A stretch of DNA of 64,000 nt from Peredibacter starrii. Its GTDB lineage: Bacteria; Bdellovibrionota; Bacteriovoracia; Bacteriovoracales; Bacteriovoracaceae. The translations under genes were made by a program, and so were the position numbers. Position 1 is the first letter of the stretch. The number at the start of each line of letters is the position of its first letter. Positions 21,937 through 25,870 of this stretch are shown piece by piece. Below the pieces are notes generated by a model that saw only the letters and a list, made by a program, of their open reading frames with translations, was not told where the DNA came from and did no database searches. The stretch covers positions 3,410,001 through 3,474,000 of the forward strand of contig NZ_CP139487.1 in the NCBI RefSeq assembly GCF_034259205.1, in the 5' to 3' direction.

Positions 21937-23274
21937 TTACTGCTCAGTTTTTTGGGGAGCAAGATCAGCAAACTTCGTCTGCGAACCGATCCATGCTAAT
22001 TCAACCGTACCCGGTTCACCGTTACGGTTTTTAGCGATGATGATTTCCGCGATACCCTTCTTAGGAGTCTGAGGATCGTAGTAATCTTCACGGTGAATCA
22101 GACACACGATGTTGGCATCTTGTTCAAGTGAACCAGACTCTCGAAGATCCTGAAGTTGCGGACGACGGTCAGTACGAGAAGCAGCGGTACGGTTAAGCTG
22201 CGAAAGTGCCACCACTGGAATTTCCAGTTCGTTGGCGAGCATTTTAAATCCACGCGAAAGTTCGGCAATTTCCTGTTCACGGTTTTGCTTCTTCACGTGC
22301 ATTGGCATGATCTGTAAGTAGTCCACGATGATCATAGCTAGTCCCTGCTCCGCTTTTAATTTACGGCAGTAAGAACGAATATCCATCAGGTTCGTGGCAC
22401 CAGAGTCATTGATATAAAGCTTTAAGTTTGAAAGCTTCTGAACGGCATTTGAGATTTGTCTCAAATCCATTTCATTAAATTCTTTGGTTTTGAGTTTTCT
22501 TGAATCCACACCTGCTTCTGACGAAAGAAGACGCATAGAAAGCTCGGCGTACATCATCTCGTAAGAGAACACCGCCACCGCCATATTGGTTTGCTTAGCG
22601 GCCGCCACCGCCCAGTTAAGTGCGAAAGCAGTCTTACCCATACCAGGACGAGCAGCAATAAGAACTAGCTGACCTGGTTGAAGACCAAGAAGAGATCTGT
22701 CGATGGAACCAAAGCCCGTCGATACACCCATGATTTCACCCTTAGCACGGGCCGGCTTTTCGAGTTCTTTTAAGTTCTCGTAAAGCGCCTGCTTTAAAGG
22801 GATCATTTTATTGTTTTTAGTTTGAGCAGTTAGTTTAAAGAAGCCAGCTTCCACTTCCTGCATGAAGTCTGCAACGTTACCAGTGAAGTTCGTTCCAGTT
22901 TGCATCACTCGAGTCGCAGTTCTCACCACTTCACGAAGCATGCTTTTTTCTTTGATCATCTGGGCATAGTATTCAACGTTCGCCGCAGAACCGATCTCAT
23001 CACAGATGGCAACAAGAGCACCTTGTCCGCCCACTTTCTCAAGCTTTCCGTGATCGTTTAATTTAGAGGACACAGTCACGATGTCAAAAGGCATCGATTC
23101 CATGTGAAGGTCTTTAATGACCGAGAAGATAATTCCGTACTGAGGATGATAGAAATCATCCGGCATCAGGTTTACGTCCGAAATCTCATCGAAGCTTGAG
23201 TTGTCGATTAATAGACATCCAAGGAGTGCTTTTTCAGCGCTTAAATCGTGAGGAAGTTCGTTCGGTCCGGCCAT
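21937..23274 (-). CDS. dnaB: Replicative DNA helicase DnaB
   Basis: Hexameric 5'-3' helicase of the replisome. 445 residues: N-terminal primase-interaction domain (LPHDLSAEKALLGCLLID), linker, and RecA-like core with Walker A GMGKT at 211-215, Walker B IIVDYLQIM, and SQLNR...RRPQLQDLRESGSLEQD. No intein. It lies downstream of rplI across a terminator-like hairpin, and its stop abuts the pabB start. Confidence 0.97.
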   Translation of the reverse strand: MAGPNELPHDLSAEKALLGCLLIDNSSFDEISDVNLMPDDFYHPQYGIIFSVIKDLHMESMPFDIVTVSSKLNDHGKLEKVGGQGALVAICDEIGSAANVEYYAQMIKEKSMLREVVRTATRVMQTGTNFTGNVADFMQEVEAGFFKLTAQTKNNKMIPLKQALYENLKELEKPARAKGEIMGVSTGFGSIDRSLLGLQPGQLVLIAARPGMGKTAFALNWAVAAAKQTNMAVAVFSYEMMYAELSMRLLSSEAGVDSRKLKTKEFNEMDLRQISNAVQKLSNLKLYINDSGATNLMDIRSYCRKLKAEQGLAMIIVDYLQIMPMHVKKQNREQEIAELSRGFKMLANELEIPVVALSQLNRTAASRTDRRPQLQDLRESGSLEQDANIVCLIHREDYYDPQTPKKGIAEIIIAKNRNGEPGTVELAWIGSQTKFADLAPQKTEQ

Positions 23275-24928: not shown

Positions 24929-25543
24929 TTAACGAGCAGTTTCGTTAGATTGGTAGCTGATAAGAAGCATGTTACGACCGCGCTTAATAGCTTCGTTTGC
25001 ACGACGCTGGAAAGTCGGTGTAAGGCCTGTGATGCGAGCTGGAGAAATTTTTCCGAACTCGTTAACTAGCCATGAGTAAGACTTAGGGTTTTTCCAGTCT
25101 GGTGAAGACTTAGTTGCAGAGAAGTAACAAGACTTGCGCTTAGAGTGCATTTTCTTGTCTTTATCGTCTGAACCGCCGAACTCGTCACCTTCAACTTGAG
25201 CAGCTTGAGTGTGATTAGGGTTCTTGTACTCTTTAACGATATCAGCTTGGTGCTTATCTTCACCTAGCTTGATGATCATGTGACGTACAAGGTGTTCGTT
25301 AATACGGAACTTACGCTCGATTTCTGCGTTAAGGTTACCAGCACCTTTGTACATGAAATAGTGGTAAGCACCTTTCTTAAGACCTGATTCTGTTGGTTGA
25401 GCGAAAGTCTTCACTCCCCATGAATCGTTAACTAGAACTTCTGCACCGAACTCTTTGAAAGTTTCAGCAAGAGAGTTCTTGATGGAAGCTACAACTTCCT
25501 CAGATGCGTCAGGGCGAACGACGAAAGCCGTTTCGTAGATCAT
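24929..25543 (-). CDS. Fused ribosomal protein S6-S18
   Basis: One 204-residue frame carries both proteins that are normally separate. Residues 1-100 are S6 (MIYETAFVVRPDASEE, GLKKGAYHYFMYKG, RINEHLVRHMIIKL). Residues 101-131 are a charged linker (EGDEFGGSDDKDKK). Residues 132-204 are S18 (KRKSCYFSATK, FGKISPARITGLTPTFQRR, AIKRGRNMLLISY), with the second zinc-type Cys lost. An in-frame ATG at codon 132 lies where S18 would start, but no Shine-Dalgarno precedes it. AGGAGG precedes the S6 ATG. No ssb lies between them. S6 and S18 form a heterodimer in the 30S platform, so fusion is structurally reasonable. Confidence 0.85.
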   Translation of the reverse strand: MIYETAFVVRPDASEEVVASIKNSLAETFKEFGAEVLVNDSWGVKTFAQPTESGLKKGAYHYFMYKGAGNLNAEIERKFRINEHLVRHMIIKLGEDKHQADIVKEYKNPNHTQAAQVEGDEFGGSDDKDKKMHSKRKSCYFSATKSSPDWKNPKSYSWLVNEFGKISPARITGLTPTFQRRANEAIKRGRNMLLISYQSNETAR

Positions 25544-25870
25544 ATTTCCTCCTGGATTATAATTAAGCCCGTAAGACCATTCCTACGAGCGAGATGAAAT
25601 ACTTAATATGAATGTCCGAGGGAAAATAACACAAAGACCCAAGATTTGGCCATTTCTTTCTCTCTTGAACTTGTTTTCCGGCTCCTCTGAGGAAGGAATA
25701 GATTCAATAACTTAAGGCATCGCATCATTTTGCTCAGATTTAAAACCCTCCCTAGGATCGTCTTGGCCCCAGTTTCCCTCTTAATTGTTATAACTTCTTG
25801 CAGCCTATTGTGAGAATTCCTCCTTCGTTGATAAAAACAAAAAGATCGCTTCAAAAATCTGGGAGGATAA
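25544..25870. other. 327-bp divergent intergenic region
   Basis: It separates the S6-S18 operon (left) and the secreted repeat protein (right). It contains the leader hairpin, a TATAAT too close to the S6 start to serve that gene unless the transcript is very short, and a TTAATTGTTATAAC segment near 25781-25794 that might be a -10 for the rightward gene. No paired -35 was convincing. A 95-codon minus-strand open frame here is not protein-like. Confidence 0.4.
25567..25590 (-). promoter_or_regulatory. Leader hairpin upstream of the S6-S18 gene
   Basis: gcccgtaag (25567-25575) and cctacgagc (25582-25590) pair as a 9-bp stem with two G-U pairs and a 6-nt loop, ending 23 nt before the ATG and just upstream of the AGGAGG site. 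S6:S18 complexes are known to autoregulate rpsF through leader RNA in other bacteria, so this is a candidate. The known CCG-bulge motif was not identified. Confidence 0.45.

Follow-up and report, generated by a model that had tools for sequence, protein, structure and literature searches.

A conserved gene fusion of ribosomal proteins S6 and S18, preceded by a covarying leader hairpin, in Peredibacter starrii and its family

Few partners in ribosome assembly have been studied as thoroughly as the ribosomal proteins S6 and S18, which must pair before they bind 16S rRNA. A first-pass annotation of a 64,000-nt window of the Peredibacter starrii genome (the whole stretch of DNA analysed here) placed both proteins in one uninterrupted frame of 204 codons, which raises the question whether the two genes are truly joined and what form their product takes in the ribosome. 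Here we report that the fusion is real at the gene level and conserved in the family Bacteriovoracaceae/Halobacteriovoraceae, whose members are mostly predatory bacteria. The first-pass annotation left unsure whether such a fusion had been described; no description was found in the open-access full texts searched (subscription papers and protein databases were outside the scope of the search), and automatic annotation may already list both domains in one entry.

The fused rpsF-rpsR gene lies on the minus strand (25543..24929; 615 bases), a strand that the first-pass annotation had not stated, and runs from an ATG start through 204 codons to a stop; the plus strand of the same interval (24929-25543) is rich in stops. 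It is preceded by the Shine-Dalgarno sequence AGGAGG (25548..25553, minus strand). The S6 domain spans about residues 1-98 (25250..25543, minus strand; Pfam PF01250 at residues 3-92, E 2.7e-19) and the S18 domain about residues 132-204 (24932..25150, minus strand; Pfam PF01084 at residues 147-195, E 3.4e-13), and between them lies a charged linker of residues 101-131 (25151..25243, minus strand). NCBIfam models place S6 at residues 1-93 and S18 at residues 134-198. All four matches are above the curated cut-offs, and the protein satisfies membership of both bS6 and bS18; the claim of a single 204-codon frame thus held at the level of the frame, Pfam and NCBIfam. An AlphaFold2 model built with 41 family sequences (pTM 0.75) is confident for the S6 domain (pLDDT about 90) and moderately confident for the S18 domain, and its low values at linker residues 112-125 (pLDDT below 50) were read as disorder. 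Foldseek matched the S6 part of the model to S6 chains, confirming the S6 fold, and none of the 60 listed sequence matches among solved structures contained both domains.

The surroundings resemble those of the separate bS6 and bS18 genes of Escherichia coli (rpsF-priB-rpsR-rplI) in that the same two domains occur in the same order with rplI nearby, but here they form one polypeptide with a linker and no gene between the parts, neither ssb nor priB. Downstream follow a DUF2232 membrane protein (Pfam PF09991; 23920..24909), rplI (L9; 23331..23903) and the replicative helicase gene dnaB (21937..23274), all on the minus strand; upstream, the next sizeable frame is on the opposite strand. The DUF2232 gene is thus flanked by the fused gene and rplI; in Pseudomonadales, a conserved gene of unknown function is reported at this position (PMC9132574).

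The P. starrii genome is a single contig of 4,153,408 bases (4.15 Mb), in which family searches for S6 and for S18 each gave exactly one match, inside the fused frame. Among 129 genomes of the family, 119 were matched by the fused-protein query, and in 110 of these, from tens of genera, the match was unbroken over essentially all 204 residues. Of the nine others, five carry separate S6 and S18 genes (G026, G112, G113, G114, G118), three are cut by contig ends (G033, G070, G136) and one (G125) has a single in-frame TAA. Named records assign the group to Bacteriovoracaceae/Halobacteriovoraceae, and the fusion is also present in records not labelled as metagenome-assembled genomes, those of Halobacteriovorax marinus (L139) and Bacteriovorax sp. 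DB6_IX (L136); in both, the single S18 match falls within a long open frame. Other Bdellovibrionota have separate genes, and the S18 genes compared there occupy frames of 74-161 aa, against at least 203 aa for intact fused genes; other phyla were outside the survey. Nearly every genome searched had one S18 copy, and the S18 match scores of the fused proteins were below those of most unfused relatives. With both domains in one frame, in single copy and conserved across species, the criteria of a true fusion of the Rosetta-stone type are satisfied. The first-pass annotation had named a stop lost by sequencing error and a second rpsR or rpsF as findings that would refute it; both are excluded, because the fusion is conserved over tens of genera and present in single copy.

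Several other records were set aside or noted separately. Matches spanning both proteins in a plasmid collection proved to be separate S6 and S18 frames (Halomonas), separate genes (Phocaeicola) or a pair annotated as two genes (Legionella). Apparent additional S6 fragments in G121 and G122 lie at contig ends, and that of G121 reads as the beginning of the gene, preceded by its leader. Genome G332 was the only one in the S18 survey with two S18 matches (C2:33809 and C6:40983), and in G040, a complete relative from another family, rpsF and rpsR are unlinked and more than 700 kb apart (C1:30505 and C1:768055).

The five genomes with separate genes (L037-L041) suggest how the fusion may have arisen. 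Their S6 proteins end in KNYKSPF(S)NN or similar, their S18 proteins carry a charged N-terminal extension ending in DKDRRMFSRKKSC or similar, and the fused linker resembles the two joined. In the proposed scenario, the fusion would have arisen within the family from adjacent rpsF and rpsR genes, when the stop codon of S6 disappeared along with the start codon that S18 had of its own, which produced one frame; the C-terminal end of S6 (motif KNYKxP) would thereby have been joined to the charged extension of S18, with the linker replacing the two free tails. A tree of RpoB gives the split lineages a weakly supported position close to the base of the family, and a single origin of the fusion was not rejected (p-AU 0.25), so that this evidence does not discriminate between a single fusion event, two such events and a later split. 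In G125 (L042, C61; also L137), no ATG, GTG or TTG occurs between the TAA that separates the S6 and S18 parts and the S18 core, a pattern that points to a mistake in the assembly, a nonsense change of recent origin or read-through.

The S18 part has retained its contact residues, as judged by four positions known from E. coli S18 (PMC4647458): K60 and R63, which touch conserved cytosines of 16S rRNA, and Y23 and K24, on the side towards S6. The equivalents of K60 and R63 are K and R in all 92 distinct fused proteins, and at the S6 interface Y23 is replaced by W and K24 is kept, likewise in 92 of 92; with these residues conserved, the fused protein still looks built for the normal S6:S18 site. 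The zinc motif CX2C...CX2H, whose presence or absence in bS18 among bacteria has been described (PMC11791143), is incomplete in every one of the 92, the second Cys being absent, so that the fused S18 fails the test for the zinc-binding (C-plus) type and is of the C-minus type, with zinc cysteines lost. All four ligands are kept in the split S18 proteins of the five genomes with separate genes. Very few evolutionary events underlie this correlation, and causation by the fusion is therefore not shown.

The region directly upstream contains an RNA element that the first-pass annotation had not mentioned, as it had neither the loss of the zinc motif nor the retained RimK discussed below. A leader model (R1) comprising hairpin, Shine-Dalgarno sequence and start codon matches at 25541..25609 (minus strand; cmsearch 55.7 bits), and its hairpin, GCTCGTAGGAATGGTCTTACGGGC (25567..25590, minus strand), stands directly before the Shine-Dalgarno sequence. 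The hairpin emerged from inspection of the sequences upstream of 89 fused genes. In an alignment based on sequence only (34 sequences), six of eight pairs had changed on both sides and 88.6% of cells were paired, compared with 73% in shuffles; in the model alignment, which was fitted to the structure (82 sequences), seven of eight pairs had changed on both sides and 95.6% of cells were paired. The covariance model gave one match in the window and one strong match in the whole genome (E 3e-9; the next at E 0.08). Across the phylum the leader was detected in 103 of 369 genomes, 102 of which belong to the 129 of the family; in these, it coincides with the beginning of the fused gene in every case in which positions could be compared. 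The sole match outside the family (G286) precedes an unfused rpsF, and weaker matches precede rpsF in the split genome G118 and in G038, from another family; since the leader also precedes unfused rpsF in relatives, it predates the fusion. As a separate observation, L211 (G130:C76) holds another copy of the leader, with a broken S6 gene start after it, in a genome with an intact locus on contig C17.

In E. coli, the complex of separate S6 and S18 represses its own translation via a leader (PMC4647458), and S6:S18 leaders are widespread, with a distinct Chlorobi-specific version (PMC7247131). The Rfam model RpsF_leader (RF02893) did not match the stretch at the fused gene even at E values up to 10, and as a positive control it matched the E. 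coli rpsF leader with 110 bits. Both elements are structured RNAs directly before the rpsF start that touch the Shine-Dalgarno region, but that of the family is a single short hairpin with CUCGCUC...GGGC, unrecognised by the Rfam model. A conserved covarying RNA structure before rpsF, the criterion for such a leader, is present. By analogy with E. coli and from its position, the element is probably an S6:S18 autoregulatory leader that has diverged, although binding and repression are inferred; because such leaders are already widespread and include the Chlorobi version, it is likely a diverged relative or a further version and not a new kind.

The reading that we consider best supported, with a probability of roughly 0.8, is that a single polypeptide comprises both S6 and S18, acts as a tethered heterodimer, enters the 30S subunit as one unit and represses its own synthesis. 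The fused protein would fold as an intramolecular form of the normal S6:S18 heterodimer and join the 30S platform as one unit, which would enforce a 1:1 supply of the two parts and skip the bimolecular dimerisation step; it would also bind the leader hairpin beside the Shine-Dalgarno sequence and repress its own translation, as the E. coli complex does. The suggestion of the first-pass annotation that fusion could lock a 1:1 stoichiometry is thus supported as the best reading by the invariant rRNA and partner contact residues and by a linker that is long and predicted to be disordered, and the stoichiometry in the cell is still inferred. Evidence at the protein level is lacking: that ribosomes contain the full-length protein, that supply is 1:1 and that the fusion binds the leader are inferences.

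Four alternatives were considered. The first, which remains possible, concerns only the leader: the hairpin may act in transcription or translation without any connection to S6:S18, for instance by stabilising the mRNA. In its favour, no resemblance of the hairpin to 16S rRNA was demonstrated in this analysis and RF02893 did not match; against it, the hairpin is tied to one gene in the genome and is specific to rpsF in relatives with and without the fusion, and, like S6:S18 leaders, it touches the Shine-Dalgarno region.

The second alternative, which we regard as unlikely, is that the fused protein is a precursor: a protease would cut the linker, mature ribosomes would contain separate S6 and S18, and the S6 tail could be extended by RimK, an enzyme that in E. 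coli and Pseudomonas attaches glutamates to S6 at its free C-terminus (PMC11957791). An orthologue of RimK is encoded in P. starrii (C1:2989798-2990667; 58% identity to E. coli RimK, nearly full length) and in most fused relatives searched. S6 has no free C-terminus in the fused protein, yet RimK is retained, so that either it has another substrate, as is considered possible in some bacteria (PMC11957791), or the linker may be cut after translation. On this view, cleavage would restore an acidic C-terminal tail to S6. The linker is acidic in many members, and its predicted disorder also fits; in addition, RimB of Pseudomonas can cut internal poly-glutamate (PMC11957791). However, no conserved cleavage motif is visible in the 92 linkers, that of P. 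starrii lacks a glutamate run long enough for RimB, inspection by eye of the surroundings of rimK in P. starrii (L218, 2278-3177) revealed no RimB-like gene, and other roles of RimK are possible (PMC11957791). Post-translational processing of the linker can nonetheless not be excluded, and it is mainly the retention of RimK that keeps us from higher confidence in the intact fusion as the mature form.

The third, very unlikely, is that cells make a free S18 from an internal ATG in addition to the fusion. The first-pass annotation had pointed out an ATG at codon 132 without a Shine-Dalgarno sequence, which held, and had left open a minor free S18, which is now largely answered in the negative. 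This ATG stands at the S18 start throughout the genus of P. starrii and in some neighbours, as part of the motif KKMHSKRKSC and usually with no Shine-Dalgarno sequence, but the motif is confined to that genus and near relatives, and most other genera have another residue in its place. When the 92 distinct fused genes were surveyed from codon 96 to the conserved S18 cysteine, the linker proved variable in sequence with a reading frame that is always open; an ATG occurred somewhere in 53 linkers, and 28, including those of H. marinus and Bacteriovorax sp. DB6_IX, had no ATG, GTG or TTG. Any Shine-Dalgarno-like motif upstream of a linker start codon was present in 11 of the 92 genes, compared with 86 of the 92 for the main start. 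Because the internal ATG is not conserved and so many linkers lack a start codon, S18 is not generally translated from a start of its own.

The fourth, that the joining of two genes is an artefact of sequencing or assembly or that a second copy of rpsF or rpsR is the functional one, is all but excluded: the in-frame TAA of G125 indicates that errors or nonsense changes do occur at the locus, but the same frame is found in 110 genomes, isolate-type records included, and S18 is single-copy almost throughout.

The tethered heterodimer, which remains the preferred reading, differs from known special forms of these proteins. In contrast to E. coli, where both tails are free, neither the S6 C-terminus nor the S18 N-terminus is free in the fusion, whereas the rRNA and partner contact residues are conserved. 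The human mitochondrial pair bS18m-bS6m likewise has a special physical link, but there a [2Fe-2S] cluster bridges two chains (PMC11791143), whereas here the link is a peptide and the metal-binding cysteines of S18 are lost. Eukaryotic ubiquitin-ribosomal protein fusions, which are cleaved (PMC10296562), also produce a ribosomal protein inside a fusion, but one of ubiquitin and a ribosomal protein instead of two ribosomal proteins in mutual contact.

A bolder reading, which we offer tentatively and would not favour over its negation, is that the whole family has a covalently linked S6-S18 protein of the 30S platform, one assembly unit autoregulated by its own leader hairpin, that the zinc site of S18 became dispensable at about the time of the fusion, and that RimK was redirected to a different substrate. 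The fusion provides a clean marker of the clade, and the leader is a candidate S6:S18 leader outside Rfam. Bacteriovorax and Halobacteriovorax can be cultured, which makes direct tests feasible. If the tethered form is indeed the ribosomal one, evolution would have removed the dimerisation step that precedes 16S rRNA binding, and the family would offer a natural experiment on the importance of dimerisation, 1:1 stoichiometry, free tails and tail modification by RimK for ribosome assembly.
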